IMG/VR virus record: IMGVR_UViG_3300024354_000013
Location: 1-64,000 of that record
Direction: 5' to 3' (one strand)
Length of the DNA stretch: 64,000 nt
From: a virus
The stretch's first letter is position 1; every line of letters begins with the position of its first letter. The translations under genes were made by a program, and so were the position numbers. Positions 77 to 55,668 of this stretch are shown here, piece by piece. Below the pieces are notes generated by a model. It was not told the DNA's origin, ran no database searches, and saw only the letters and a list, made by a program, of their open reading frames with translations.

Positions 77-898
77 ATGGAAAAGATATTCTATCAAAGC
101 TCATTGCCTAGAGCAGGAAGTACATTATTACAAAACATACTAGCTCAAAATCCTGATATATACGCTACACCTACAAGTGGTGTGTTAGAACTTATATTTG
201 GTGCACGTGCTAACTATACAAACTCAGCAGAGTTTAAAGCTCAAGATCCTGAGTTAATGAAAACAGGATGGCAAGCATTTGCTAAAGCTGGAATGGATGC
301 ATTCTACAATGCTGTTACAGATAAAAAATATGTGATAGATAAGTCTCGTGGATGGGGTATTCACTATGATTTCTTACAGTTTGTACAAGGTGGTGAACCT
401 AAAATCATTTGCATGGTTAGAGACCTACGTGATGTATTTGCTTCTATGGAGAACAACTTCAGAAAGCATCCTGAGAAGCAATCAGACATTTTGGATTGGT
501 CTAAAGGTCAAGGTACTACTGTACCAAAGCGTATTGATATCTGGTCACAGAATCCTCCTGTAGGACTAGCTATTGAAAGACTAGCTGAGATATTTAGACT
601 AGGTATTAATACTAAAATATTATTCATTAAATTTGAAGACCTATGTCTCTATCCAGAAACAGAGATGACAAGGATATATCAATACCTTGGTATACCACAC
701 TACCACCATGATTTTGATAACATTGAGCAAATTACTAAGGAGGATGATGAAGTGTATGGAGCATTTGGTGATCATGTCATTAGAACAAAGCTAGAGCCTG
801 TTCCTTCTAGAGCAAAAGCATTGTTAGGGAAAGATGTAGTTGATTGGATATACAACAACTACAAATGGTTTTATGACTATTTTAGATATTCAAAATGA
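77..898 (+). CDS. PAPS-dependent sulfotransferase
   Basis: This 273-residue protein has both cofactor-binding signatures of the sulfotransferase family. The 5'-phosphosulfate loop is LPRAGSTLL near residues 10-18, and the 3'-phosphate motif is MVRDLRDVFASM near residues 113-124. Such enzymes move sulfate from PAPS to a hydroxyl on a sugar, peptide or lipid. The length is normal for a soluble bacterial-type sulfotransferase and no signal peptide is seen. Its stop overlaps the start of an APS kinase, the enzyme that makes PAPS, so donor synthesis and use are probably co-expressed. The acceptor is unknown; nearby glycosyltransferases suggest a phage glycan or glycoprotein, which is inference. 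Confidence 0.85.
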   Translation: MEKIFYQSSLPRAGSTLLQNILAQNPDIYATPTSGVLELIFGARANYTNSAEFKAQDPELMKTGWQAFAKAGMDAFYNAVTDKKYVIDKSRGWGIHYDFLQFVQGGEPKIICMVRDLRDVFASMENNFRKHPEKQSDILDWSKGQGTTVPKRIDIWSQNPPVGLAIERLAEIFRLGINTKILFIKFEDLCLYPETEMTRIYQYLGIPHYHHDFDNIEQITKEDDEVYGAFGDHVIRTKLEPVPSRAKALLGKDVVDWIYNNYKWFYDYFRYSK

Positions 899-1338
899 TT
901 ATAGTGTTATTTGGACAGCCTAATTGTGGAAAGTCCACATTGGCTGATGCGCTTATAAAGGAAAGGTTTACTATTGTAAACATTGATGGAGACAAGCTCA
1001 GAGAGATATTTGTGAACAAAGATTACAGCAGAGAGGGGAGAATCAAGAATCTGAACAGGGCTAGTGATATTGCTACGTTCATGAGCACTATTGGGGATGA
1101 CATCATCCTATCTCTCGTATATCCATATAAGGAAGCTAGAGACTACCTCAACAGCTTGTGTGACTCTGTCTATTGGGTTTATTTGACATATGATGAGCCT
1201 AGAGGCAGGGAATCATTTCATGTAAAGGATTTTGAAGAGCCTGGAGATGATGAACGTGTTCTTCGTCTGAACACTTCTACAACATCCATAGAGGACTGTA
1301 TAACTAAAATAATGACACATGCAAAACTTCTTGGCTAG
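895..1338 (+). CDS. cysC: Adenylylsulfate (APS) kinase
   Basis: The P-loop GQPNCGKST lies at the N-terminus, followed by the APS kinase hallmarks IDGDKLRE, YSREGRIKNLNRASDIA and SLVYPYKEARDYL, and a C-terminal VKDFEEP that matches the family's substrate-lid region. The enzyme phosphorylates APS with ATP to give PAPS, the donor for sulfotransferases. At 147 residues it is slightly shorter than the usual 180-200. It overlaps the sulfotransferase stop by 4 bases and the next gene by 20 bases. A generic phosphotransferase is possible, but the motif series and the neighbour favour APS kinase. Confidence 0.8.
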   Translation: MIIVLFGQPNCGKSTLADALIKERFTIVNIDGDKLREIFVNKDYSREGRIKNLNRASDIATFMSTIGDDIILSLVYPYKEARDYLNSLCDSVYWVYLTYDEPRGRESFHVKDFEEPGDDERVLRLNTSTTSIEDCITKIMTHAKLLG

Positions 1339-1717
1339 ATCAGCAGGACCCACTTCTTCCAATGACAAGAAATATTCTATGTTTATAGGAAGATGGCAAC
1401 CCTGGCACGCTGGACACAGATGGTTAATTGACCAGAGACTCAATGAAGGAAAGAATGTCCTCCTCTGTATAAGAGATGTAGAACCAGATGAGAAGAATCC
1501 TTGGACCGCACATCAAGTGATGTTAAACTTATTCGATGAACTTAAAGACTTGGTTGAATCAGGAAGAGTTAGGGTTATTACTATACCTGATATTGAATCT
1601 ATTAATATTGGTAGGGGTGTTGGTTATGATGTCATAGAACACGTACCCCCTCAGGAGATACATGACATATCTGCTACAAAAATCCGTGAGCAAATGAAAG
1701 TAGAAGGTAAGCTATGA
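1319..1717 (+). CDS. Small HxGH nucleotidyltransferase (adenylyltransferase-like)
   Basis: The 132-residue protein carries the nucleotidyltransferase signature GRWQPWHAGH, an NPWTA segment resembling NadM-type enzymes, and ISATKIRE, equivalent to the ISSTxxR motif. These enzymes join ATP (or CTP) to a phosphate-bearing substrate. Placed between APS kinase and a DUF2061 protein, it might supply APS as a minimal ATP sulfurylase-like activity. That role is inferred from context only; NMN adenylyltransferase or a sugar-phosphate nucleotidyltransferase are alternatives. An internal ATG at 1379 begins directly at the HxGH strand and would remove the overlap with the upstream gene, so the start is uncertain. 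Confidence 0.7.
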   Translation: MQNFLARSAGPTSSNDKKYSMFIGRWQPWHAGHRWLIDQRLNEGKNVLLCIRDVEPDEKNPWTAHQVMLNLFDELKDLVESGRVRVITIPDIESINIGRGVGYDVIEHVPPQEIHDISATKIREQMKVEGKL

Positions 1718-1926
1718 CTGTAAGCAAGAAAAGACATATAGCCAAAACAATCAGCTACAGGATTGTCAGCACACTCATTGGGTTTGGTATTATGTGGCTA
1801 GTGACAGGAAGTGTGAAAATAGGAGCTGCATTTGGTGTAGCTGAGCTAGTGTACAAGCCTATACAATATTACCTACATGAGCGTATTTGGTATAAATGGA
1901 TTAGATATGGACTGAAGAAAGACTAA
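1714..1926 (+). CDS. DUF2061-like small membrane protein
   Basis: This 70-residue basic protein has two membrane segments (about 17-33 and 36-50) and the DUF2061 pattern KTISYRIVST...GFGIMW...AELVYKPIQYYLHERIW. I recall members of this family near sulfate-activation genes in bacteria, and here one overlaps the nucleotidyltransferase stop by 4 bases in the same cassette. Its molecular role is unknown. The 3' end overlaps the convergent epimerase gene by 26 bases. Confidence 0.75.
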   Translation: MTVSKKRHIAKTISYRIVSTLIGFGIMWLVTGSVKIGAAFGVAELVYKPIQYYLHERIWYKWIRYGLKKD

Positions 1927-2716
1927 GCATTGCTTTGTATTCTTCTAGCCCTTTCTCCAAATTGTATTTAGCTTCCCAACCAGGCATAAACAAATCAGCC
2001 TTGGTAAACATCTGATAGTTGTCAGGCATTTCAAACTTGAACTTGTATTTGAATGGTATATCCATTATCTCTAGAACATTCTCAAACGTTCTGGGCTCTC
2101 CTGTTCCTACATCAAACCATCCTCCTTTGAATTCATTGTAATGCTGCCAGGCATACAAATTTGCATCTACAACATCCTTTATATACACAAAGTCTCTCAC
2201 AGGTTGTCCTGGAAAGAGCATCACTTCTTCTCCAAGCTGATGTTTCTTATAAGATTGATGAGCAATAGAAGCCATGTTTCCTTTGTGCATTTCTCCTGGT
2301 CCATACACATTGAAATAACGTAGGGCCACTCCCTTGCTCTTTATTACAAACTCCTCTCCCAGAAACTTACTCCATGCATAGAGTGTTTCAGGACTTCCCT
2401 TTGTTCCATATATAGCAGCTGATGAACTATATATAATGGGAATGCCTCTGTGCTGACACCAGCTAGCAATGATGTTAGTGGAATGTACATTGAGCATAAG
2501 CATCTCATTGATGTCCTTGTTCTGTGTATCTGAACAAGCACCTACATGAAACACCACTTCTGGGTTCATGTCTACAAGATATTCTATAAGTCTATCCTGC
2601 CATCTGGCTCTATCAAATATCCATTTCTCAAGACCCTTTACAGTGTGCCCCTGTCTTTCAAGTTCTGTCTGTAAAGCTTTGCCAATAAATCCGTTGTTAC
2701 CTGTTACGCAGACCAT
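1901..2716 (-). CDS. hldD: HldD-like ADP-heptose 6-epimerase (NAD-dependent SDR)
   Basis: An extended-SDR epimerase with the NAD-binding GNNGFIGKAL at the N-terminus, SSSAAIYG, and the catalytic YAWSK. The segment RYFNVYGPGEMHKGNMAS followed by PVRDFVYIKDV matches ADP-L-glycero-D-manno-heptose 6-epimerase closely. That enzyme flips C6'' of ADP-D,D-heptose. I chose the ATG at 2716 (271 residues) because the Rossmann strand starts there; a start at 2764 would add residues outside the fold and overlap the methyltransferase more. HldE2- and HldE1-like genes lie at 7.2-8.3 kb. A related NDP-sugar epimerase is the main alternative. Confidence 0.78.
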   Translation of the reverse strand: MVCVTGNNGFIGKALQTELERQGHTVKGLEKWIFDRARWQDRLIEYLVDMNPEVVFHVGACSDTQNKDINEMLMLNVHSTNIIASWCQHRGIPIIYSSSAAIYGTKGSPETLYAWSKFLGEEFVIKSKGVALRYFNVYGPGEMHKGNMASIAHQSYKKHQLGEEVMLFPGQPVRDFVYIKDVVDANLYAWQHYNEFKGGWFDVGTGEPRTFENVLEIMDIPFKYKFKFEMPDNYQMFTKADLFMPGWEAKYNLEKGLEEYKAMLSLSSVHI

Positions 2717-3357
2717 ATGTGTATTATTATTTCTGTATAATATGCTAGGAATTCTTCTGACCAAACTCCTGCTGTGATGTCCACACCATCCAAGGAATAC
2801 ACCTTGAAATTTACATCATGTAAATATTCATCTCTAAACTTCTTGAATTTTTGTTTCAGAAGAAGATTGCTCAAATGCCATTCTCCAGCTATCTTCTTCA
2901 TATTGCTCAGTATCCATGGTTTGTTTTCTAGGGTGAATATGTCATACTCCCCACCCTCACAATCCATCTTAAGGAAGTCTATCCTACCAATATTGTAATC
3001 TTCAATCACCTGCTTAAAGGTGGTGCAATACGTAGATTCCCCCTGATCATCAAAGACAAACTCACCATCAAACTTACCTACATGTCCTGATATAGCTTTG
3101 TTGATACATGTAACAGGAGCGTGTCTTGTATTATACACCAGTGTCTTAAACTCTGAATAACTAGGCTCAAAACAGAACACGTGCTTTGGATGCTTATCTA
3201 GGATGGAATAGGTGAATATACCTATACTTGCTCCAATATCAAACACCACATCACCCTCTTCTACGGTGAAGCATTTCTCATATATCCTATCTACAAATGT
3301 TTCTCTCTTTACTGTCTCTATAAATATGGCGTCTGATGTTCCCCAATTAAATTCCAT
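2704..3357 (-). CDS. FkbM-family SAM-dependent methyltransferase
   Basis: A 217-residue class I methyltransferase with the SAM-binding motif VVFDIGASIGIFT, followed by FCFEPS and the FkbM-type DFLKMDCEGGEYDI. FkbM enzymes O-methylate sugar hydroxyls in natural products and surface glycans. It is sandwiched between the epimerase and the giant glycosyltransferase fusion, overlapping the latter's 3' end by 40 bases, so it is probably co-translated and acts on the same glycan. The substrate is unknown. Confidence 0.85.
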   Translation of the reverse strand: MEFNWGTSDAIFIETVKRETFVDRIYEKCFTVEEGDVVFDIGASIGIFTYSILDKHPKHVFCFEPSYSEFKTLVYNTRHAPVTCINKAISGHVGKFDGEFVFDDQGESTYCTTFKQVIEDYNIGRIDFLKMDCEGGEYDIFTLENKPWILSNMKKIAGEWHLSNLLLKQKFKKFRDEYLHDVNFKVYSLDGVDITAGVWSEEFLAYYTEIIIHIWSA

Positions 3358-6300
3358 GATTGTATTTTTTTAATTACGTCTTCAGATTTAATAGATGTCT
3401 GACATTCCCATTGTCTGTCTGTTCCTTTATGCACAGGACACCAGTTCCAATCTCCTGCATCAAATCTGTATTCAGCTTTGTTCCAGCATCCATGACATAC
3501 ATTCTCATTAGTAATTCTAATACAGCTAAACTCATGGTCAGCAGCTGTAAAGTTACTAATCATTACCACTTGTTTATTCAGAGCCCAAGCTAACCAGCTT
3601 AGCCCACTGGATAGTCCTATAAAGAACTCACTGTGATGGATAACATTCATGGTGTTCTCCATAGATGTATCTTCAAGCTGTTCACAATTGTCAAAAGGAT
3701 TCTTCTCCTTGGACACATTAACTATCTTATATCCATTCTCATGTAAGAAGTTGATGGTGAGCTGCCAGTCTTCCTTCTGCCAAAACTTACATCCAGCCGT
3801 TGAATTAGTGGCTATTGTAACATATCTACCATATGAATTGTTACCAGGTGTAAAGGCTAAACGTGGTCTAATCTCTTGAAAATCAAGACCTAAGATGTTG
3901 GTTGCTGTCTGTTGGAGGGGAATAGTATTACACAAAGCTGGCTCCTTATTACCATCATAGAACCAACCCACACTGTACATACCAAGGATGTTACCTACAC
4001 CTGTTCCTGGTTCTACAAACTCAAGCTCTGGATAGACACTCTCAAATAGGAAGTTCTTAAATGTGCTCACTGTTACATGGCAATTGTGCTTCCTCTTGAA
4101 CTCAAGTACATATGGCATCCATGCAATTGTGTCTCCTAGTGATTTGCTATCCATAGCTATATAGACACGCTGGCCCTCATAATTGAGTGTATACTCATAG
4201 TATATACTTTCATCCTTCCACACCTTGATGGTCCATTTGGTAAACCATCTCCTGTTGAGCTTCACCCAGTGATTCACCTTTATCTTGTTCTCATAGTGAC
4301 ACACACCCTGCTCATCATAAAATCTGACAGTGAAGGTGCTTTTGGAATTACCTGTTATCTCTAGGAATGGCTCGTGTATAAATGTGTGGGTGATATTAAT
4401 CAGTTCTTTGTCAGGCTGTATGGGTCTATTCATCACCTCCTGATACAGATCAATATGCTTCTGTGCGAAATCAAGCTTCTGTCCTTCAGGAATATCGTAG
4501 CTCACATCTGTATCTAACAGCTGGGTGAGCTGTTCTTTCATCTTTTCAGGCTTCAGATCTGTAATATACTGAGTGAACATGTCTCCATACTGAGGAAGAT
4601 TTCTTGCCAGGATTGGCAGTCCATATCCTATAGCTTCTCTAATCACCAGTGGATTGCATTCAAATGTACTGTTAAACAGGAACACATCTGCAGCTGCCAT
4701 AAACCTACCCACATCATCACGCTCTCCCCATACATGTACATTAGGTGGTATGTCCTTCATAATGGGTTCCCAGTAGTGCTGGAAGTTACCAGCCTGATTA
4801 CCTACAAAGTGGAATTGTACATCTGGCATTTGTCTAGCCAGCTCTACAGCTTCTCCTTGGTTCTTACCAGCAGTCCATAGTCCTACATTAAGCACATGTT
4901 TACCAGGTCCTAGATCTATGGGCTCAGATTCTTTCTTCACGATAGGAAACTCAATCACCTCCTTTCTAGAAGGCATATTAGCAAACGTCTTTAGATGGTG
5001 TGGTGTACAGAACGCATATGCATCTGGATGATAGCGCTTCTCTAAGTCTGGCTTGAACACAATGTTGTGACATGTTTCAATCATCCTCCAGGTTCTATTT
5101 GGACTGTACAGCGCTTGTCTCACCTCTTCTGGCCAGTTGTTCCAGCCATCTTCCACCATCTCATCCACATGCACTATATCTACAGCATGTCTTTTGATGA
5201 TATCAATCACCTCCATCTTATTCTCTCCCAAGGTGTAGAAGTGGTGGGCTATTTCCTTTATCTGATTCTTCTGGACAACAAAGTGATCACTGTGGTTGGA
5301 ATACTCCACAACAATAATCTTAGATTTGGAATAGGCCAACAGATCTGCTATTCTCTCTAAAAGGAAGGCAGGCATTCCACCTGTCGATAGATGTGGTGCC
5401 AGGAATAATATCTTAAGCTGATTCTTCTGGCGCTCTAACATTCTGTACATAGTGACAGCATCCTTTTCTCCGTGATAGAATAGTAACTGGTCTACATCTG
5501 CAGGCACAGCTACAAAATGTGCTAGGTGCTGCTTCTTAGTTCTGAATGTGACATTATTCACTGTGTTCAAGGATCCATTCATGTATATGTATGGTAGTCC
5601 ATCTAATGCCTTGTACTTCCACAGAAGCACGTTAGCTATAGTTTCCTCATGATAGGGAGCATAGTATTGTGGATTCTGTAACACCTTGGGATGGTTACAC
5701 ATCCACCACCAACTGTCAAGGAATTCTTGACAGTATTCACCAGCTACAAAATATCCTGTTTGTCTGTATTTATCTCTGATGTATTGATCTACACCAAACA
5801 GCTCACAAGCTGGATGTTCAAGAGTAGTGGATAGGTCATCTCTACTATCAGCCCCACCTCTTCCATTGCTGATCATCCATTCATATATTCCCTCTGTAAA
5901 ATACGGATAGGCACTCTTCACTGGGAAATAGTCAAATATTCTGTCTACATACTTGGTAGCCACACTATCACTATCCACATAGGCCACTGTTTTAGCATGC
6001 TTTAACGCTTCTTTAACAATTAGTGGGCGCTGGATGAGGATGTTGTAAATGTCTGGATTAGCTCTGTCTATATACTTCTGCTGAGGAAGATCCTTGGTTT
6101 TACAATCCCAACGGAATGTAGCAGCTCCCTTTATATCCACATCTGAGTTGAGCATATAAACCATAACAGGTAGACTGCTAAAGGTTCTAAGAGAATCTAC
6201 GCACGCCTGCACAGTGTCCTTATAGCTCTCTGTAGCATATAAGACATATGCTTTTTCCCATCTAATGTCCTGATTTACATAGTATCCATACCACTGGTTG

Positions 6301-6770
6301 TCATATAGCTTCTCCAGTCCTGGGTAACGCTCTAGCATCACCTCTGGTGTTAGATCTGCCTGGTGGTGGGTTTCATACTCATTTCCATACTCTGCTCCAT
6401 CCTGAGCCATCATATAGGGCACAGCTACAAGAAACCTCTTGTCCATCAGGTCAAAGTCTGTAAGCAGGTTTTTAGCTGTGCCTGAGGGTAGGTGTTCTAG
6501 AATATCCCCTAAGATGATAAAGTCATAGGGTCTAACATCAAAGGTGACAATATCCCCTACATAAACATTATCATATTTAGCTCTCAGATTGAACTGATCT
6601 ACATATGGAGCCCATATCTCTACAGCATCCATCCTATATCCTAAATTCCTTAGCAAATCAGAATATGTTCCCTGTCCAGGACCTACATCTAGAATGCGTG
6701 TTGATAGGGGAATATTGTCTATAAACCACTGCTTTATTTCAGGCTTGAAGTAGGTGTAACTGTTTGGCAT
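3318..6770 (-). CDS. Four-module fusion: methyltransferase, GT-A, GT4, O-heptosyltransferase
   Basis: This is the longest protein of the window (1150 residues from the ATG at 6770). Module 1 (about 1-180) is a SAM methyltransferase with ILDVGPGQGTYSDLL. Module 2 (about 185-440) looks like a GT-A transferase with AYVDSDS as DxD. Module 3 (about 455-790) is GT4-like with FLAPHLSTGGMP and ECNPLVIREAIGYGLP. After a beta-rich linker, module 4 (about 890-1150) is GT9-like and carries the cysteine cluster CHGCWN...GDWNWCPVHKGT...WEC, characteristic of iron-binding autotransporter O-heptosyltransferases (TibC/BAHT), which glycosylate proteins with heptose from ADP-heptose. A consensus promoter (6791-6822) lies just upstream of this start. 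Confidence 0.85.
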   Translation of the reverse strand: MPNSYTYFKPEIKQWFIDNIPLSTRILDVGPGQGTYSDLLRNLGYRMDAVEIWAPYVDQFNLRAKYDNVYVGDIVTFDVRPYDFIILGDILEHLPSGTAKNLLTDFDLMDKRFLVAVPYMMAQDGAEYGNEYETHHQADLTPEVMLERYPGLEKLYDNQWYGYYVNQDIRWEKAYVLYATESYKDTVQACVDSLRTFSSLPVMVYMLNSDVDIKGAATFRWDCKTKDLPQQKYIDRANPDIYNILIQRPLIVKEALKHAKTVAYVDSDSVATKYVDRIFDYFPVKSAYPYFTEGIYEWMISNGRGGADSRDDLSTTLEHPACELFGVDQYIRDKYRQTGYFVAGEYCQEFLDSWWWMCNHPKVLQNPQYYAPYHEETIANVLLWKYKALDGLPYIYMNGSLNTVNNVTFRTKKQHLAHFVAVPADVDQLLFYHGEKDAVTMYRMLERQKNQLKILFLAPHLSTGGMPAFLLERIADLLAYSKSKIIVVEYSNHSDHFVVQKNQIKEIAHHFYTLGENKMEVIDIIKRHAVDIVHVDEMVEDGWNNWPEEVRQALYSPNRTWRMIETCHNIVFKPDLEKRYHPDAYAFCTPHHLKTFANMPSRKEVIEFPIVKKESEPIDLGPGKHVLNVGLWTAGKNQGEAVELARQMPDVQFHFVGNQAGNFQHYWEPIMKDIPPNVHVWGERDDVGRFMAAADVFLFNSTFECNPLVIREAIGYGLPILARNLPQYGDMFTQYITDLKPEKMKEQLTQLLDTDVSYDIPEGQKLDFAQKHIDLYQEVMNRPIQPDKELINITHTFIHEPFLEITGNSKSTFTVRFYDEQGVCHYENKIKVNHWVKLNRRWFTKWTIKVWKDESIYYEYTLNYEGQRVYIAMDSKSLGDTIAWMPYVLEFKRKHNCHVTVSTFKNFLFESVYPELEFVEPGTGVGNILGMYSVGWFYDGNKEPALCNTIPLQQTATNILGLDFQEIRPRLAFTPGNNSYGRYVTIATNSTAGCKFWQKEDWQLTINFLHENGYKIVNVSKEKNPFDNCEQLEDTSMENTMNVIHHSEFFIGLSSGLSWLAWALNKQVVMISNFTAADHEFSCIRITNENVCHGCWNKAEYRFDAGDWNWCPVHKGTDRQWECQTSIKSEDVIKKIQSWNLIGEHQTPYL

Positions 6771-6790
6771 AACTGATTGGCTTTCTGTTA

Positions 6791-6822
6791 CAAAGATAGA
6801 AAAAAGATTTGGTAGTTTCAAA
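6791..6822 (-). promoter_or_regulatory. Bacteroidota-type promoter for the leftward glycan operon
   Basis: On the minus strand TTTG (6822-6819), a 20-base spacer and TATCTTTG (6798-6791) match the TTTG/TAnnTTTG consensus exactly. The site overlaps the rightward promoter at 6808-6839, so polymerases would compete for the same DNA. The inferred transcription start is about 15 bases before the ATG at 6770. Confidence 0.8.
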
Positions 6823-6839
6823 TAAATTACATAGATTTG
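6808..6839 (+). promoter_or_regulatory. Bacteroidota-type promoter for the cupin-heptose operon
   Basis: TTTG (6808-6811), a 20-base spacer and TAGATTTG (6832-6839) match the consensus exactly. The inferred transcript starts near 6844, about 30 bases before the cupin ATG at 6876. An in-frame ATG at 6837 lies inside the promoter and is unlikely to be translated. Confidence 0.8.
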
Positions 6840-6875
6840 CCCCACAAGTGGAGTGTATCCACTTTATGCTATATT

Positions 6876-7223
6876 ATGCACGAACTACATAAAGTTGAGA
6901 AGGGTTGGGGTCACGAACTCTGGATCCATAACTCCCCAGAATACTGCGGAAAACTGCTGGTTTTCAAGGCTGGCAAGAAGTTCTCAATGCACTTCCACAA
7001 GATAAAGCAGGAGAGCTGGTATGTAAGCAAAGGGTCCTTCCAATATACATGGGTGGACATGTCTACAGGCACCCTCTATACAGACTATCTGAAGGAAGGA
7101 GATGCTCTAACCATTATGCCCTACCACCCTCACCAGCTGGAAGCTCTAGAAGATGGCATCATATTTGAGGTGAGTACACAACACTTTGATGAAGATAGCT
7201 ACAGACTATGGAAGGGGGACTAA
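6876..7223 (+). CDS. Cupin sugar-phosphate isomerase-like protein
   Basis: A single-domain cupin of 115 residues. It begins KVEKGWGHELW, the usual opening of type II phosphomannose isomerase-like cupins, and has metal-site motifs FSMHFHKIKQESWYV and, later, YHPHQLEA. Such proteins isomerise sugars or bind sugar phosphates. It overlaps the HldE2-like gene by 16 bases. The window has no recognisable GmhA, so this cupin could supply the heptose-7-phosphate isomerase step; that is inference. The start at 6876 is chosen because the promoter ends at 6839. Confidence 0.72.
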   Translation: MHELHKVEKGWGHELWIHNSPEYCGKLLVFKAGKKFSMHFHKIKQESWYVSKGSFQYTWVDMSTGTLYTDYLKEGDALTIMPYHPHQLEALEDGIIFEVSTQHFDEDSYRLWKGD

Positions 7224-7618
7224 GGGTATGGGTGAATGGAGCATTTGATGTCCTGCATATAGGGCATATTCAACTCCTTAAAAGAGCTAAAGAGTTTGGT
7301 AGTGTGAGAGTGGGTGTTGATAGTGACGCACGTGTTGCAGAATTAAAAGGTGATAGTAGACCATTTAACAAGCTGTCTGACAGAATAGATTTCCTGAAGA
7401 GCATTAGGTATGTGGATGAGATAGTATCATATGATTCTGAGGAAGAGCTCACCAACCAAATCAAACTTTATGAACCAGACATCATGGTGATAGGATCTGA
7501 CTACATGGGAAAAAGAATAGTGGGGGCTGAATATATAACACAGATAGTATTCTTTGACAGAATAGAACATAAATCAACTACATCAATATTAGGGTATGAA
7601 GCTGGTGGTAATAGGTGA
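7208..7618 (+). CDS. HldE2-like heptose 1-phosphate adenylyltransferase
   Basis: A 136-residue nucleotidyltransferase with NGAFDVLHIGH (HxGH), VGVDSDARV, LKGDSRPFNKLSDR and IGSDYMGKRIVG, ending HKSTTSIL. LKGDSRP and the DY..K..VG segment are typical of the RfaE2/HldE C-terminal domain, which makes ADP-D-glycero-beta-D-manno-heptose from heptose 1-phosphate and ATP. The kinase gene follows with a 23-base overlap, so the two halves of bacterial HldE are split and reversed in order here. A glycerol-3-phosphate cytidylyltransferase is less likely but related. Confidence 0.8.
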   Translation: MEGGLRVWVNGAFDVLHIGHIQLLKRAKEFGSVRVGVDSDARVAELKGDSRPFNKLSDRIDFLKSIRYVDEIVSYDSEEELTNQIKLYEPDIMVIGSDYMGKRIVGAEYITQIVFFDRIEHKSTTSILGYEAGGNR

Positions 7619-8336
7619 TGTCTGCAAGGATGTCTTCATCTATGGAGACTGTAAACGCTTAAGTCCAGAAGCACCTGTACCTGTATTTAATCCAGTGGAA
7701 ACAATAGAGAACTCAGGAATGGCTGGTAACGTGGTAGCCAATCTAAGTGCTATCAACCCCAACCTGCAGATAAATTTCCATCACAACTTTGAGAACATTA
7801 CCAAAACCAGGTATGTAGATAAGAAGACCAATCACCTTTTCCTAAGAGTGGACGATGAGCCAAAGGTGAATAGAATATTCCTCACAGCTCAGCTTATTGA
7901 GGATGTAGAAACTGCAGATGCTGTGATTGTGAGTGACTATGACAAGGGATATCTAACAGAAGATGACCTGCAATATATAGCTGTTAAAGCTAAGTGGTCC
8001 ATCTTAGACAGCAAGAAGCATTTAAAACCACACACCATATCAAACTATTCATTCATCAAACTGAATGAATCTGAATACAATAAAAACAAACAGTCTCTAA
8101 TTTACATGAGAGACAAAGTGATAGTGACACTTAGTTCCAAAGGAGCAATGCATAAAGATGTTACATACAGCTCCCCAAGTCCAAAAGAAACTATAGATGT
8201 AAGTGGTGCAGGAGATACGTTCGTTGCAGCATTTACAATTAAATACTTGGAAACCAAAGACATATCTACGTCTATTGAATATGCCAATCTTATGTCATCT
8301 ATTGTGGTGGGTAAGAGAGGTGTTGTAACCCCATAA
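7596..8336 (+). CDS. HldE1-like heptose 7-phosphate kinase (PfkB family)
   Basis: This 246-residue ribokinase-fold protein starts IGDVCKDVFIYGDCKRLSPEAPVPV, and SPEAPVPV is a hallmark of the HldE kinase domain. GMAGNVVANL follows, and the catalytic PfkB signature DVSGAGDTFVAAF sits near residue 200. The reaction is phosphorylation of D-glycero-D-manno-heptose 7-phosphate at O1. It is shorter than the usual 310-residue domain. A hairpin terminator lies just downstream. No heptose bisphosphate phosphatase (GmhB) is visible in the window. Confidence 0.8.
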   Translation: MKLVVIGDVCKDVFIYGDCKRLSPEAPVPVFNPVETIENSGMAGNVVANLSAINPNLQINFHHNFENITKTRYVDKKTNHLFLRVDDEPKVNRIFLTAQLIEDVETADAVIVSDYDKGYLTEDDLQYIAVKAKWSILDSKKHLKPHTISNYSFIKLNESEYNKNKQSLIYMRDKVIVTLSSKGAMHKDVTYSSPSPKETIDVSGAGDTFVAAFTIKYLETKDISTSIEYANLMSSIVVGKRGVVTP

Positions 8337-30724: not shown

Positions 30725-32263
30725 TTAATCAACAATCATCTGCACCCTAGAGCTGATTTCATCTCTCATGTGGTCAAGAGACTGAACAATATTCTCAATC
30801 TCCACAGTGGAAATGTGAGGAATGTTGAACTCATGCTTCTTAGACTCAGCTACAAAACCATCCTTGGCCTTCTCTGACAAGCTCTCAAGCTCACGAATAG
30901 CGTAGCTATCATCTAGTTGAAGAGTATCAAAATCTAGGTCATGTAGGATTTCTGTAGCTTCCTCTCTAGGAACAGTCATGATTGGGAGATATTCCCAGCA
31001 CCTGCCCTTAGATTCACCAATACCAACCACCTTCATAGGATTGATTAATACAAGCACAGATTGATCACCACAGCCTACATAATGAATCTCGTCAGATGTG
31101 AAATGCAAACCTTCTGCACCACAATCATCTGTGTTCCATCTACACTTACCTGGATCCATGTTTACAGGCTTACCAACACGAATATCAAATGTGCGTGTAT
31201 GAGCATCTGTAAATCTATTCTCTGCCCTATTAGGTAAATCTAGATAGAGATCTGTCAAACCTCCAATCTTCTCACCATACTCACTGTCATTATAATCATA
31301 ACGATCACCATCACCATCACACGTACCACATGCTGTATACTCATTCTCCTCCTCATCCCACATTTCACCAGTACCATCACAGTCTTCACATGTTACAACT
31401 TTATTAAGGTCTTTGTTATCCACTATTCTATACTCACCATCCTTGAGAAACACTGTATATTCATTTGGACTCTTCTTCCATACAGCTTTCACCTTGTTGT
31501 AAGCATTACTCACGAATTGTACAAGCTCAGTACTACCGTGGAGCGTTACTACGTTCCTCAGTGCAACAAAGAATCCTTGCTTGGTGATCTTAAAGCTATT
31601 CTTCTTGAGGAAGTTGTATAACTTGTCAGCCACCTCAGCACGAGGATTCAGACAGCACCACATAAAGAAGCGCTTCAGAGACTGATATTCCTCGTCAATA
31701 GACAAAGACCAACGATTTCCATTGTGTCTGTTCACTATACGAAGGAACTCCTCAACAAGAAGTTGTGGAAGTGTGCGGTTGATACCATACAGATAAACAC
31801 TATTCCCCTTCACCTCAAAATCATTCAGCTCAGCCAGTAGTTTAATACCAGCCTGTAGCGCTCTAACTCTCTCAGCTTCATGCTCTTGTTTCTTTCTCTC
31901 TGTAACCACCTCTTGAACAGCCATAATGTCTATAATCTCATATTCATCTATAGCACTACGAACATCCTCAAAATCCTGTGTTGTAGCATTTGGCTTAGAT
32001 AGGATGGACCCATCGTTAAGCACCACAGTGAGCACATTATTCACAAGCTTTACATTCTTGTAGGACTTTGTAGCTACACCTCCTGTGTTGGTGTTCACAG
32101 TCCAATTGTATGTCTTTTCTGCAGCAGGTAATGTCGCAGATGTTGCAGATGTTGCTTGAAACAATTCTTTTCTTAGGAGCTCATTCTTTATTCTTTGCTC
32201 CTCCACCTGTAATTCATCAAGTTCTCTTTGTTTTTTTGATTTGAACCAGTTTAATGTAAACAT
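30725..32263 (-). CDS. rIIB-like protein with DnaJ-type zinc finger
   Basis: 512 residues. It follows the rIIA-like gene, as in T4-type phages, and shares the long rIIB-like layout: LKNVKLVNN-type N-terminal strand region, LYNFLKKNSFKITKQGFFVALRNVV in the middle and a C-terminal WEYLPIMTVPREEA block. Between them is CEDCDGTGEMWDEEENEYTA followed by CGTCDGDGD, two CxxCxGxG units that should bind zinc. rII proteins counter host exclusion systems and affect lysis; the exact role here is inferred from homologues. Confidence 0.7.
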   Translation of the reverse strand: MFTLNWFKSKKQRELDELQVEEQRIKNELLRKELFQATSATSATLPAAEKTYNWTVNTNTGGVATKSYKNVKLVNNVLTVVLNDGSILSKPNATTQDFEDVRSAIDEYEIIDIMAVQEVVTERKKQEHEAERVRALQAGIKLLAELNDFEVKGNSVYLYGINRTLPQLLVEEFLRIVNRHNGNRWSLSIDEEYQSLKRFFMWCCLNPRAEVADKLYNFLKKNSFKITKQGFFVALRNVVTLHGSTELVQFVSNAYNKVKAVWKKSPNEYTVFLKDGEYRIVDNKDLNKVVTCEDCDGTGEMWDEEENEYTACGTCDGDGDRYDYNDSEYGEKIGGLTDLYLDLPNRAENRFTDAHTRTFDIRVGKPVNMDPGKCRWNTDDCGAEGLHFTSDEIHYVGCGDQSVLVLINPMKVVGIGESKGRCWEYLPIMTVPREEATEILHDLDFDTLQLDDSYAIRELESLSEKAKDGFVAESKKHEFNIPHISTVEIENIVQSLDHMRDEISSRVQMIVD

Positions 32264-32281
32264 GTTGTTTGTTTTTGAATT

Positions 32282-34582
32282 TTATAATATTTCGTTTAAT
32301 ACTTCCTCACTAATAGGTGTTTCTATTTCCACCTCATCGTTGAGCTTGATTTGATAATATTTCAGATCCACCCTATGCTTGTGATATTTGAATAGATCTA
32401 CGAGAGCCTGTGTTATTTTCTGAGTTTTATCATTAGTGTAAACACTCATGGCGTCTAGAATTGGATGGAGGAACAAAAGCTTTTCGCACACAGCCTTCAC
32501 CTGCTTATACGTGTCATGTATCTCAGGATCAAACTGATTCACCTCTGTAGCATGCGCTGCAATAGCATCTCTAGCTTCATCACTCATGATGTCTCTATAG
32601 TTTTTTCTAAAATAACTCTCCAGTATTTCCACCTTATTAAACAGATCTGTAGATACGTATTGCAGGTGTTGTCTATTACTGAACACAGCTCTATATTCAT
32701 CTCTGAGCTTGTCAATCATACAGCTAGAAGCTATACGTTGGAACATTTTATTCTTCCCTTCCATAAATTTACTAAAAGACATTAGGTTATGTAATTTCAA
32801 GCTAGTCACTATTTTGAGCTCACGGTCACTGAATATAGCCAGCTCAACATTGTGGTTTCTACTAGGTTTAAACCATTCATCCATTTTGTTAGCATCTTCC
32901 TGCTTACCATACAAAAGAACAAACTTGTTCTGGTGGAACTTAGCTAGGTCATATATCTTGCTCACCCACTTACAGTTTTTACCATCAGACCAACGCTCTA
33001 GCGCTTCAGCCTGTTTACACACAATCTCACCCTTGAGCTTTATTCTACGAACACCAGGCGTACCACTTGCATTAACACTCACCTTCACCTTCTTTCTAGA
33101 ATCAATGAAGGATTGAGGAATGTCTATTGTGTCAAGACTGATAAATGTACTTGTTAAGCTCTTAACAACCAATTGGAAGTCTTTAATCAATTGTCTCCAT
33201 TGTTCCTTTGGATAGTCACGAAGCTGTAGGATGTTATAATAGTTGTCATAAGCACCATCTTTACCACGCAGCTTGAAGTTTTTCACCTTCTTAAATATGT
33301 AAGCCTCTTCATGTGTATGAGATTGTGAGCTCTTGACATAGTCTTTCTTTAACTGACTAAGTTTCTCTGATTCATATACATACACTTTATCCTTCAGACG
33401 TCTTACAGATGTTATTTGGTAATAACTCTTGGCATCACGAACCATCTTTCTGTTTACAACAAACTTGCCCTCATATTCTCCAAGAATATACTCCTGCAGC
33501 TTTGCAATGCGAGAAGGTTTTAGTAATGTAGTTCCCTTAAAGTTGGGCTCGTTCATTTTAATTGTAGCAAACTGAGACAAAGGATTGATGTCCCACTTGT
33601 TAGTGTTAAACATCAAATACCTATTGTTGCTATCAAAATACTCTACAATCTTTCTAACATTATCTGTTTCTTTAACACTCTCGTTATATTTCTCCACAAA
33701 ATAATCAGCAGCTTGAGAAAGACGTTTGAGAATGATAGCCTTGGCCTCCTGTGTATATCTAATAGATTCTCTGTTTGGTGTTGGAAATATACCATCTGTC
33801 AAACTAAATCTAAGACCAACAGGAAGCATTATATAATCAATACCAAGCTTCTTAAAATCCATGGGATAGTAGACATTATCCAAACAGATGTGTAGATTGT
33901 TGTCTTTAGCTAGTTCAGAGAATTGAAAATACTGATGACGGACAATTGTAAAATCATTACTAATCCCTTCTACATCAAAATATACATTCTCGAAATAAGC
34001 TAGCTGCTCGTTGATTTTATGATTGAAATCATACTTATCACGCCAGCTAATTGGAACAATCACCTTAACACCATTAGGCTGATCTGTAGGAGCTTCATAT
34101 AAGAGGTCAATTGTATTGACATCTTCTCCTTCATACATCATGTATTTGCGTTCCATTCCATCCTTACGAGCGATAAAATAGAAGCTAGATGTATATGCTA
34201 GCGGGGCTTTAAATCCTAGCCCCATCATGCCTAGTTCTGTAGTGCTATTACGCTTTGTACTCTTACCATATTTACTGATGATATTCTTTACGTCCTCAGC
34301 ATCTAGTCCTGTACCAAAATCCTCTACAGAGAATTCATATGAGTTGTCTTTTGTAGCACGCAGGCTGACAATAATAGGTTTGTCAGTTTGTGCTCTTCTG
34401 TGACTGTCCAGCGCATTAGAGGCACACTCACGAATAGTGGAACCAATTGCGTCTGAATACAAGTTCTTGCTCAGCATTTGCATAAGCACCTGTGCTGAGT
34501 CCAGGTCTAAGGACATGCCTATAGACTCTGTGGATTCACCGTCCTGATGAATCAATGCTTCTTTCTGTTTTTCTAATATCAT
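32282..34582 (-). CDS. rIIA-like GHKL ATPase
   Basis: 766 residues with an N-terminal GHKL ATPase: the N box IRECASNALDSHRRA, G1 VEDFGTGLD, and G2 MGLGFKAPLAY within the first 130 residues. The remainder is long and mostly helical, as in T4 rIIA (725 residues). It is encoded 18 bases upstream of the rIIB-like gene. Its likely partners are the rIIB-like protein and the membrane. Confidence 0.82.
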   Translation of the reverse strand: MILEKQKEALIHQDGESTESIGMSLDLDSAQVLMQMLSKNLYSDAIGSTIRECASNALDSHRRAQTDKPIIVSLRATKDNSYEFSVEDFGTGLDAEDVKNIISKYGKSTKRNSTTELGMMGLGFKAPLAYTSSFYFIARKDGMERKYMMYEGEDVNTIDLLYEAPTDQPNGVKVIVPISWRDKYDFNHKINEQLAYFENVYFDVEGISNDFTIVRHQYFQFSELAKDNNLHICLDNVYYPMDFKKLGIDYIMLPVGLRFSLTDGIFPTPNRESIRYTQEAKAIILKRLSQAADYFVEKYNESVKETDNVRKIVEYFDSNNRYLMFNTNKWDINPLSQFATIKMNEPNFKGTTLLKPSRIAKLQEYILGEYEGKFVVNRKMVRDAKSYYQITSVRRLKDKVYVYESEKLSQLKKDYVKSSQSHTHEEAYIFKKVKNFKLRGKDGAYDNYYNILQLRDYPKEQWRQLIKDFQLVVKSLTSTFISLDTIDIPQSFIDSRKKVKVSVNASGTPGVRRIKLKGEIVCKQAEALERWSDGKNCKWVSKIYDLAKFHQNKFVLLYGKQEDANKMDEWFKPSRNHNVELAIFSDRELKIVTSLKLHNLMSFSKFMEGKNKMFQRIASSCMIDKLRDEYRAVFSNRQHLQYVSTDLFNKVEILESYFRKNYRDIMSDEARDAIAAHATEVNQFDPEIHDTYKQVKAVCEKLLFLHPILDAMSVYTNDKTQKITQALVDLFKYHKHRVDLKYYQIKLNDEVEIETPISEEVLNEIL

Positions 34583-53322: not shown

Positions 53323-53641
53323 AAAAACTACATACGTAAATGCTGAGCTTGATTGGGCAGAACAACAGCTTTCCTCCTGGAAGGCGTATGTTGATGCCAA
53401 TCCCCTGCATGAACTTAAAGATAGGATTGAGTGGAAACCTACAGCCAAAGGAGGCATGCTTCCCATGGTGATTGCATCAATCGAAGCACAAGGTAAGTTT
53501 ATACAGGAAACAATGAAGAACTACTTGGCTCTTCTAGAGGTGGTGGAGAAACTAAGAGAGAAGGAAGAAGCTAAAGTGGAAATCAGAGGCAATGGAGAAC
53601 TAAGCTCCATGGCTGAGGACTTCCTTAAGAGCAGACGATAA
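53306..53641 (+). CDS. Possible small terminase subunit
   Basis: 111 residues, helical, with a central amphipathic region (IEAQGKFIQETMKNYLALLEVVEKL) and a basic end SMAEDFLKSRR. It directly precedes and overlaps the large terminase by 1 base, the usual TerS position. No HTH is certain, so the name rests on context. Confidence 0.45.
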   Translation: MAKTIKKTTYVNAELDWAEQQLSSWKAYVDANPLHELKDRIEWKPTAKGGMLPMVIASIEAQGKFIQETMKNYLALLEVVEKLREKEEAKVEIRGNGELSSMAEDFLKSRR

Positions 53642-55668
53642 TGGGCGAGCTTAAAAGCATAGACTACAAAGACTGGTTTATTAACCAGGGGCGTCTGCCT
53701 GACCGTGAGTCAGAGGAGTATAAACAGTTCTATGACTTTCACAAAGAGCTTTGTCTCAATGGTTGCATGATGGGCGGTGTATACATCAACCCATTTTTAT
53801 ACTGGCATCTGAACATGTGGCATACAGAGGTGGATGTTGTTGATGAGCGTGGAAGAATATATCAGAAATATGCCAATCCCCTGTTGCGTGATAACGAATG
53901 GATAGTGACAAATGAAATCGACAGGGCACAACAAGAAAAAAAGGGCTTGGTCATCCTAGGAATTAGACGTTTTGCCAAGTCTGTTTTAGAGGCTTCTTAC
54001 ATAGGGTGGGGCGCAACGTTTGACGAAAATTCCCAGAATGTGATCGCTGGGTTAAATGCCCCCGATATAAAGCTGATCACAGATAAGCTGGACAAGGGCC
54101 TCAACTTTTTGCCTGAAGCATGGAGATGGCAGAGAGTGGAGGATAATTGGAAAAACCAAGTCACCCTAGGTATCAAGACTCGTGGAGGGGAACGTATACC
54201 GTTCTCCCAAATCCTCATCCGTAACTTGGATGAAGGTAATAACGAGGAAGCTATTGCAGGTACAAAACCACGTAAACTAATTATTGATGAGATTGGTAAG
54301 GGAAATTTCCTTAGAGGTTTTCAGGCAGCTGTGCCTGGTTTCACCACACCTTATGGTTGGGGATGTTCTCCTTTGCTTACAGGTACAGGTGGTGATATGA
54401 AGAAATTCATGGATGCTAAATCCTTGATGTTTGATGCAGACAATTTTAACTTCCTAAGTTATAACAATGAGAAAGATGACACGCGCGTTCATGGGTTATT
54501 TATCTCATATAAGTATCGCATGGAGGCAAAAGAAGAAAGCACGCTCGGTGAGTTTTTGGAACAGCCTGTTGACAGTGACTTGTATAATGTTAAGATGTTG
54601 GTGAGCAATGAAGACAAAGCTCTTGAAATCACCACAAACAATTTAGAAAGACTAAAGAAGGCTGGAGACAGAGTGGCTTATTTGAAAGAGAAGATGTACT
54701 ATCCAATTGAAGTGGATGACATCTTCCTCAATGAGGACACAAACATATTTGATATAGAAGCAGCCAAACGTCAAAAGAGTAGGTTGCTTATGCAGGGGCG
54801 TACGGGCACTCCTGTTATTCTGTTTAATGACGGTGAAAAGATTTGTCACGAGTTTACGGACAAACAACCAATAACCAACTTCCCTCTAAAGAACAGTGAC
54901 TTAAAAGATGCTCCTGTTGTTATATACGAATTCCCTATCGAGAATCCTCCATACGGACTCTATGTAGCAGGGGTTGACCCATACAGACAAGGACAAGCTG
55001 CGTATTCTACATCTCTTGGTAGTGTGTACATTTATAAAAGAATGCATGATATTACAGGAGAGAAATATCAGGATATGTTCGTAGCTTCGTATTGTGCAAG
55101 ACCTGATAAGAAAGACACCTGGGAAGAACAGGCACGACTTCTCATCAAGTATTTCAATGCACGTACACTTTGTGAGAACGATGACATATCTTTCATAGAA
55201 TATATGAAAGCAAAAGGAGATGCACACTACCTAGAGAAGCAACCTGATTGGTTGAAGGAAGTGGTGCCTGGAACAACAGTGAAACGTGACTATGGTGTAC
55301 ACCGTTCTTCTGAGAAAATCAGAGACTATCTACACAACTGTCTGAAGAAGTATATGGAGGAAGTGGTGTATTCTGAGAAGGATGATGACGGAAAGATAGT
55401 GAAAGAAGTGACAGGTGTATCAAAGATATTTGATCCTGTGCTGTTGGAAGAAATCATCCAATACAACGATCAAGGTAACTTTGACCGTATTGTGGCTGCA
55501 GAACTTGCTATTGCTCAGGCTCTTAAGATGGATCCTGTGCTTGGTAAGGTGGGAGGATCCAGTGATCCTAGAGTGAGCGCGATATTCAAACCCAATAAGA
55601 AGAATGTGTTGTTCACAGAATCTCGTGGGTTATTTAATAAAAGGAAAAAAAGTAAACTTTTTACATAA
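53641..55668 (+). CDS. terL: Terminase large subunit
   Basis: 675 residues. Walker A variant ILGIRRFAKS (about 105-114), Walker B RKLIIDEIGKG (211-221) and GTGG coupling motif follow in order. The C-terminal nuclease region begins YVAGVDPYRQGQ, the first acidic motif of the RNase H-like fold. It cuts and pumps DNA into the prohead. The stop overlaps the portal start by 1 base. Confidence 0.9.
   Translation: MGELKSIDYKDWFINQGRLPDRESEEYKQFYDFHKELCLNGCMMGGVYINPFLYWHLNMWHTEVDVVDERGRIYQKYANPLLRDNEWIVTNEIDRAQQEKKGLVILGIRRFAKSVLEASYIGWGATFDENSQNVIAGLNAPDIKLITDKLDKGLNFLPEAWRWQRVEDNWKNQVTLGIKTRGGERIPFSQILIRNLDEGNNEEAIAGTKPRKLIIDEIGKGNFLRGFQAAVPGFTTPYGWGCSPLLTGTGGDMKKFMDAKSLMFDADNFNFLSYNNEKDDTRVHGLFISYKYRMEAKEESTLGEFLEQPVDSDLYNVKMLVSNEDKALEITTNNLERLKKAGDRVAYLKEKMYYPIEVDDIFLNEDTNIFDIEAAKRQKSRLLMQGRTGTPVILFNDGEKICHEFTDKQPITNFPLKNSDLKDAPVVIYEFPIENPPYGLYVAGVDPYRQGQAAYSTSLGSVYIYKRMHDITGEKYQDMFVASYCARPDKKDTWEEQARLLIKYFNARTLCENDDISFIEYMKAKGDAHYLEKQPDWLKEVVPGTTVKRDYGVHRSSEKIRDYLHNCLKKYMEEVVYSEKDDDGKIVKEVTGVSKIFDPVLLEEIIQYNDQGNFDRIVAAELAIAQALKMDPVLGKVGGSSDPRVSAIFKPNKKNVLFTESRGLFNKRKKSKLFT

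Follow-up and report, generated by a model that had tools for sequence, protein, structure and literature searches.

A compact phage cassette, probably for sulfate activation and sulfation, with a candidate third type of ATP sulfurylase

The stretch of viral DNA analysed here (the window) comprises the first 64,000 nucleotides of a virus record of 110,063 bases and carries, at positions 77 to 1926, four ORFs on the + strand that overlap head to tail by 4, 20 and 4 bases. This overlapping order had been proposed in the initial annotation, and each ORF lies where it was placed; family searches also agree with the names that were given to all four genes.

77 to 898, + strand: sulfotransferase (ST), 273 amino acids, matching Pfam Sulfotransfer_3 and Sulfotransfer_1 and PHROG 27463
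895 to 1338, + strand: APS kinase (KIN), 147 amino acids, a short version whose lid is reduced, above the PF01583 cut-off
1319 to 1717, + strand: HxGH adenylyltransferase (ADT), 132 amino acids, proposed from fold and genomic context to be a minimal ATP sulfurylase
1714 to 1926, + strand: small membrane protein of the DUF2061 family, 70 amino acids (PF09834, 9.5e-18)

The record closes (record end L223) with a 174-base repeat of the start of the window, at 98.9% identity, so that the genome is probably close to complete, in circular or permuted form. Across this end junction, the gene before ST encodes a protein without a Pfam match, and further up is the end of a fibre, bearing a Peptidase_S74 chaperone. 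On the opposite strand, the cassette is followed by genes for an epimerase, an FkbM-type methyltransferase and a 1,175-amino-acid protein with methyltransferase and glycosyltransferase domains, such that the glycan-gene neighbourhood previously noted for this cassette is also recovered by family searches. Epimerase, GT9-type domain, heptose-1-phosphate-adenylyltransferase-like and PfkB-like genes are present at window positions 1901-2764, 3318-6845 and 7208-8336, and look like those of a phage ADP-heptose-type pathway. At 30725-34582, adjacent genes match the lysis inhibitor families RIIA and RIIB. The terminase (53641-55668) is 39% identical to that of the Leptolyngbya (cyanobacterial) phage Lbo-JY46, and 32% identical to the terminases of phi17:2 and phi4:1, Cellulophaga phages that we take to be crAss-like. 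Searches of the window for tRNA and Rfam matches yielded none.

The ST product matches Sulfotransfer_3 (5.3e-17) and Sulfotransfer_1 (4.6e-12) in Pfam, as well as PHROG 27463 (1e-42), and its relatives in Synechococcus phages are annotated as sulfotransferases. Close to the N-terminus is a P-R-A-G-S-T sequence, the loop for the 5'-phosphosulfate of PAPS, which is retained as PR[AS]GST in 41 of 42 viral homologues; a VRDLRDV segment is also present. With a family model above its cut-off and a PRxGST loop, ST has the characteristics of a PAPS-dependent sulfotransferase.

KIN scores 41.9 bits (1.4e-10) with Pfam APS_kinase (PF01583), for which the cut-off is 21.1, and its profile matches APS kinases in the PDB at 1.9e-19. 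The KIN structural model (pLDDT 92.7) has only APS kinases or PAPS synthetases as its first 28 structural matches (best Z 20.9, 2.0 Å over 145 residues), with gluconate kinases next at 17.7. The R, N and PY residues aligned with the APS site do not vary, and two further motifs are widely retained:

913 to 936, + strand: P-loop of KIN, GQPNCGKS (G-x4-G-K-[ST] in 90 of 92 viral homologues)
985 to 1002, + strand: DGDKLR of KIN, the APS kinase phosphotransfer motif, located by alignment (DGDxxR in 90 of 92 viral homologues)

The PF01583 match, the P-loop, DGDxxR and the fold are all as expected of an APS kinase. The score with the TIGR00455 equivalog is 40.5 bits, below the cut-off of 138.7, and the lid is shortened, with RGRExFHV instead of the usual KGLYKKAR...FTGID. 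KIN is therefore a divergent APS kinase.

ADT passes the cut-off of a single Pfam model, CTP_transf_like (1.2e-4, 22.7 bits versus a cut-off of 21). For ADENYLYLTRANSFERASE (ADT), the nearest relatives of solved structure are NMN adenylyltransferases, followed by PPAT. The fold superimposes on the NMNAT structure 1f9a with a Z score of 9.8 (2.7 Å over 110 residues), in a model that is less certain past residue 100 (block means 62-78). This fold and the HxGH motif, the latter found in 92 of 92 viral members, place ADT in the HxGH nucleotidyltransferase superfamily. In the structural comparison with NadM and sulfurylase that the initial annotation had suggested, ADT is closer to NMNAT and PPAT than to Sat, whose structure 1v47 appears only at rank 48. 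Three motifs are conserved in ADT:

1388 to 1417, + strand: GRWQPWHAGH, with the HxGH catalytic motif (no variation at GR, H and GH across 27 diverse members)
1610 to 1627, + strand: GRGVGY loop, located where the NMN pocket would be (GR, V, G and Y do not vary among 27 diverse members)
1667 to 1687, + strand: ISATKIR (S and R invariant in 27 members; pattern in 92 of 92 viral members)

The loop reads GRG[VI]GY in all 92 viral ADT sequences and GRDVGY in cultured phages. ISATKIR resembles both SGTxxR of Sat and ISGTxIR of NadM. After the third strand, ADT runs straight into PDIxSxNYGRGVGY and then ISATxIR, whereas in NadM a segment containing Trp, and PxYDVVYTGN, come next. This segment and the PxYDVVYTGN strand-loop, which belong to the NMN site of NadM, are absent from all 27 aligned ADT sequences, and are visible in the NadM proteins of archaeal ADT carriers. 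ADT is best read as a cut-down NadM-like fold in which an invariant GRxVGY loop replaces the NMN pocket.

In Sat, the QxRN and GRD loops hold sulfate and phosphosulfate, and HxxH and SGTxxR serve the pyrophosphate side (PMC3779200). ADT has HxGH and S[AG]TxxR as counterparts of the latter two, lacks QxRN, and has a GR[G/D] loop. The GRGVGY loop is a possible counterpart of the GRD loop of Sat, and R99 may hold sulfate. The Sat model PF01747 is not matched by ADT in a Pfam search, no CysD or CysN family is among the ADT matches, and scores with the NadM model TIGR01527 (31.5 bits for ADT of the window, 43.9 for that of the flavobacterial locus L132) miss the cut-off of 181 bits. By every family test run on its sequence, ADT is none of Sat, CysDN or NadM.

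ADT might alternatively belong to the NadM group, adenylylating NMN or a related substrate in phage NAD salvage, and be adjacent to the kinase only by coincidence; its best named families are indeed NadM-type. Also, a NADAR gene adjoins a fused form of ADT in phage Bhz60. The NadM scores are nonetheless far under the cut-off, the Trp/PxYDVVYTGN stretch of NadM is missing and the invariant GRxVGY loop is found instead, and the surrounding genes are CysC, CysH, CysQ and sulfotransferase genes, not NAD genes. Moreover, four archaeal carriers of ADT encode a NadM of their own elsewhere in the genome. We consider a function in NAD salvage highly improbable.

Searching IMG/VR with ADT gave 562 stretches that encode it, and the best 80 of these were analysed. 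KIN, used alone as the query, gave 16 loci, every one of which also has ADT. Removal of duplicates left a viral set of 94 loci. In this set, which comprises the best 80 of the 562 ADT stretches and the KIN loci, KIN and ADT are on the same strand in 90 of the 90 loci with both clusters and are spaced by -60 to +30 bases in 72 of these 90, an arrangement far beyond chance; a sulfotransferase related to that of the window or to a cellular one occurs in 47 of the 94, and in about half of the loci the DNA analysed has no recognised sulfotransferase. The DUF2061 cluster, which also includes a few unrelated small proteins, is represented in 79 viral loci. Another cluster, c18, appears sulfotransferase-like by eye, and was left out of the 47 loci because it has no Pfam match.

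Genes for a heptose-type adenylyltransferase, a PfkB kinase and an epimerase are inserted between KIN and ADT in L021, L027, L028, L034, L052 and L074, which ties the unit to glycan making. A small HAD phosphatase (~112 amino acids) is encoded exactly between KIN and ADT in L015 (481-819), L038-L042, L046, L060 and others. A conserved 77-amino-acid protein (MIDVKVRWNT...) follows ADT in L066 (2019-2252), L049 (5384-5617), L057 (5722-5955) and other viral loci.

Viral cysC genes have been interpreted as serving assimilatory sulfate reduction in the relevant passages of two earlier accounts (PMC10914622, PMC9529941). On that reading, APS and PAPS made by the phage could boost this host pathway, and not sulfation. 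APS kinase does belong to the assimilatory route, and some contigs are reported to carry viral cysC and cysH together. When Nitrospirales proteins were used as queries in single-sequence searches, however, no relatives of CysH or of sulfite-type reductases were detected among the ORFs of the viral loci, which extend over flanks of ~5 kb. A sulfotransferase is present in the 47 loci counted above, half of a set drawn from the KIN loci and the best 80 of 562 ADT stretches, and most cellular carriers of ADT are also without CysH. We find a role in host assimilation very unlikely; viral cysC probably serves sulfation, and not assimilatory sulfate reduction.

Relatives also exist in cultured phages. 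A tblastn search for the kinase in cultured phages gave no matches; this link was made through ADT and PHROG 10255. A KIN-ADT fusion of ~245 amino acids, annotated as "kinase" or hypothetical, is encoded by Stenotrophomonas phages Bhz60 and DLP6, Xanthomonas phage AhaSv and Clavibacter phage 33. Two genes upstream of the fusion in Bhz60 is a protein that scores above the Sulfotransfer_4 cut-off, and its AhaSv counterpart scores just under it. The fusion adjoins a NADAR gene in Casjensviridae phages, and in Bhz60 this NADAR-type gene (L205, 4148-4591) directly precedes it.

In a scan of GTDB genomes, 69 cellular loci with ADT were found, and in most of these an APS kinase is beside or fused to ADT. 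Fusions occur in both orders, KIN-ADT in L116, L139, L149 and L160, and ADT-KIN in Omnitrophota, Planctomycetota, DPANN archaea and WWE3. CysQ-type genes adjoin ADT in Flavobacteriales, a Nanoarchaeia bin and Woesearchaeota, and several of these loci have two or three sulfotransferase genes. A 449-amino-acid gene upstream in L162 was considered as a sulfate transporter and dropped, as it has no Pfam match. In a phylogenetic tree, most viral ADT sequences form one group nested among those of Marinimicrobia and Bacteroidota, with a few separate transfers. Phage and cellular ADT proteins are 44-45% identical and have motifs in common, and conclusions on cellular ADT are carried over to the phage protein on this basis.

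Nitrospirales bins L118, L120 and L123 have genes for a sulfite/nitrite-type reductase and an APS reductase followed by ADT, with no kinase adjoining. The APS reductase passes the curated cut-off of TIGR02055 in L118, the one tested. The enzyme otherwise missing from such an operon is ATP sulfurylase. All three of these carriers also have a fused Sat-APS kinase. In the L118 and L123 genomes, a Sat-family protein of ~590 amino acids is encoded elsewhere, besides the ADT after APS reductase.

Neither Sat nor CysD is found in 36 of 47 carrier genomes, belonging to many phyla, and a Sat or CysD-like gene is present in the remaining 11; single absences are weak evidence because the carrier genomes are incomplete metagenome bins or single cells. 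One 5.7-Mb Planctomycetota bin has a CysH-like gene without Sat and without CysD. The family is rare and patchy, given that ADT occurs in 6 of 196 genomes from the order of the Flavobacteriales carrier and in 1 of 198 Nitrospirota genomes searched, and broad statistics are therefore not possible.

The 196 genomes from the order of the Flavobacteriales carrier allow a more direct comparison. Among them, ADT is encoded in 6, APS kinase in 77, CysD in 129 and Sat in none. CysD is present in 70 of the 77 genomes with APS kinase. The seven that lack it comprise all six ADT carriers plus one further genome, G200, in which the kinase match is a contig-edge fragment of 67 residues. The Fisher p value among the 77 is 3e-8, which overstates independence since the six carriers are relatives. 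Gene order at the locus is conserved between carriers and noncarriers. In relatives G105 and G119 it is SprA-GcvH-TonB-CysN-CysD-CysC-DeoC-two aldehyde dehydrogenases-CysQ-flippase, and in carrier L132 it is SprA-GcvH-TonB-CysC-ADT-DeoC-two aldehyde dehydrogenases-CysQ-flippase-sulfotransferases. (CysC, CysD, CysN, CysQ, DeoC and the aldehyde dehydrogenases were checked; SprA, TonB and flippase are readings from sequence.) A matching swap distinguishes G057 from carriers L137 and L124, in a version of the locus without the aldehyde dehydrogenases. Flanking proteins of L132 are ~64-89% identical to those of the relatives, and CysQ is 82-86% identical, but CysC is only ~51% identical. No remnants of CysD or CysN were detected in the carrier loci by tblastn. 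The conserved flanks, the divergent CysC and the lack of a CysD/CysN remnant indicate that, in these marine bacteria, CysC-ADT arrived as a unit that replaced CysC-CysD-CysN.

This replacement also bears on the possibility that KIN and ADT act on a different activated group, such that ADT would adenylylate another oxyanion or a sugar phosphate and KIN would phosphorylate the product. An analogy is the synthesis of the phosphoramidate capsule modification of Campylobacter, which uses a CysC-like kinase. The short lid of KIN and its score below the TIGR00455 cut-off could fit such a substrate, as could the glycan genes and small HAD phosphatase that are near in several viral loci. Yet cellular ADT takes the place of CysD/CysN beside CysQ and sulfotransferases, it comes after APS reductase in Nitrospirales, and the sulfotransferases in phage cassettes are of the PAPS type. 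On balance, we judge another activated group to be decidedly unlikely.

ADT might also be a non-catalytic accessory subunit or regulator of APS kinase, which could explain why it is so tightly linked, and in some cases fused, to the kinase. It is hard to reconcile this function with the retention of HxGH and S[AG]TxxR in all viral members, or with the Nitrospirales ADT, which stands without a kinase alongside. Moreover, the six Flavobacteriales carriers would then have no known source of APS. We regard an accessory function as extremely improbable.

The fourth gene of the cassette has similar associations elsewhere. A plasmid of Mesorhizobium huakuii has the gene order nodB-nodC-nodI-permease-sulfotransferase-DUF2061-cysD-cysN. 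In Chitinophagaceae and a Bacteroidia bin, DUF2061 is an N-terminal domain on APS kinase, and in other Flavobacteriales it is beside CysC or a few genes away. DUF2061 also occurs at places without sulfur genes. The small membrane protein may aid sulfate activation, either via sulfate supply or by membrane anchoring.

We propose that the cassette is a complete and compact unit for sulfate activation and sulfation, in which ADT is a third type of ATP sulfurylase, and assign this reading a probability of about 0.86. ADT would use sulfate and ATP to make APS and pyrophosphate, which is the ATP sulfurylase reaction, KIN would phosphorylate APS at the 3'-OH to form PAPS, and ST would then pass the sulfuryl group of PAPS on to an acceptor. 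The initial annotation had found no place for the adenylyltransferase in this route unless it makes APS itself. Precisely this exception is now strongly favoured by the replacement of CysD/CysN, the fusions in both orders, the tandem of APS reductase and ADT, and the separate NadM of archaeal carriers, and phage ADT is very probably the APS maker. The acceptor would most likely be a glycan from the adjoining phage glycosyltransferase, epimerase and methyltransferase genes. Because of these neighbouring genes, a sulfated phage glycan is a plausible end product.

Descriptions of ATP sulfurylase generally cover just two kinds, Sat and CysDN. We found no published description of an ATP sulfurylase of the ADT family in the open-access literature, a search in which an earlier report could be missed. 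The family may have been overlooked because databases label it as NMN adenylyltransferase or cytidyltransferase-like protein. Sulfate activation and sulfation are known processes; what would be new is the enzyme family at the first step. It is highly likely that ADT proteins (110-160 amino acids) are a third, independent ATP sulfurylase that is spread among phages, Bacteroidota, Marinimicrobia, Omnitrophota, Planctomycetota, Nitrospirota and DPANN, that has replaced CysDN in at least one lineage, and that forms with a short APS kinase a very small phage PAPS unit for sulfating the phage's own or host glycans. If so, this third ATP sulfurylase is about one third of the size of Sat, and it would fill gaps in how uncultured lineages handle sulfur where APS kinase and sulfotransferases seem to be present without a source of APS. 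Viral cysC in lakes and oceans would then signify sulfation, possibly of glycans on the surface of phage or host, and not sulfate reduction towards cysteine.

Several known systems resemble parts of the cassette. The viral cysC auxiliary genes described previously are of the same phage APS kinase family as KIN, and are read as assimilatory in the passages concerned, whereas the cassette in the window includes a sulfotransferase; the neighbouring ADT goes unmentioned in those passages on viral cysC (PMC10914622, PMC9529941). PHROG 10255, the "kinase" of Casjensviridae phages, corresponds to a KIN-ADT fusion of ~245 amino acids, but differs from the window cassette in that it is a single chain, has GRDVGY and not GRGVGY, and lies on a long tree branch. 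The nod cluster of Mesorhizobium huakuii similarly groups sulfotransferase, DUF2061 and ATP sulfurylase genes, beside nod genes, and has CysD/CysN where the phage cassette has ADT.

Among enzymes, NadM (TIGR01527) is the closest neighbour of ADT in sequence and fold, and the two have GRxQPxHxGH and TxIR motifs in common. ADT differs from it by the lack of the Trp segment and PxYDVVYTGN, the invariant GRxVGY, scores far below the cut-off and a different gene context. CysDN would share with ADT the proposed reaction, and shares the genomic slot beside CysC in Flavobacteriales. However, CysDN pairs a PP-loop protein (CysD) with a GTPase (CysN), whereas ADT is one small protein without an adjoining GTPase partner. 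Sat/Met3 (PF01747) likewise catalyses the reaction proposed for ADT, and has an HxGH-superfamily nucleotidyltransferase fold. Both have HxxH-type and S[AG]TxxR motifs, as well as GR(D/G) loops that may correspond, and both are frequently fused to APS kinase. Unlike Sat, with ~400 amino acids, ADT has 132, no PF01747 match and no QxRN, and its fold is closer to those of NMNAT and PPAT.
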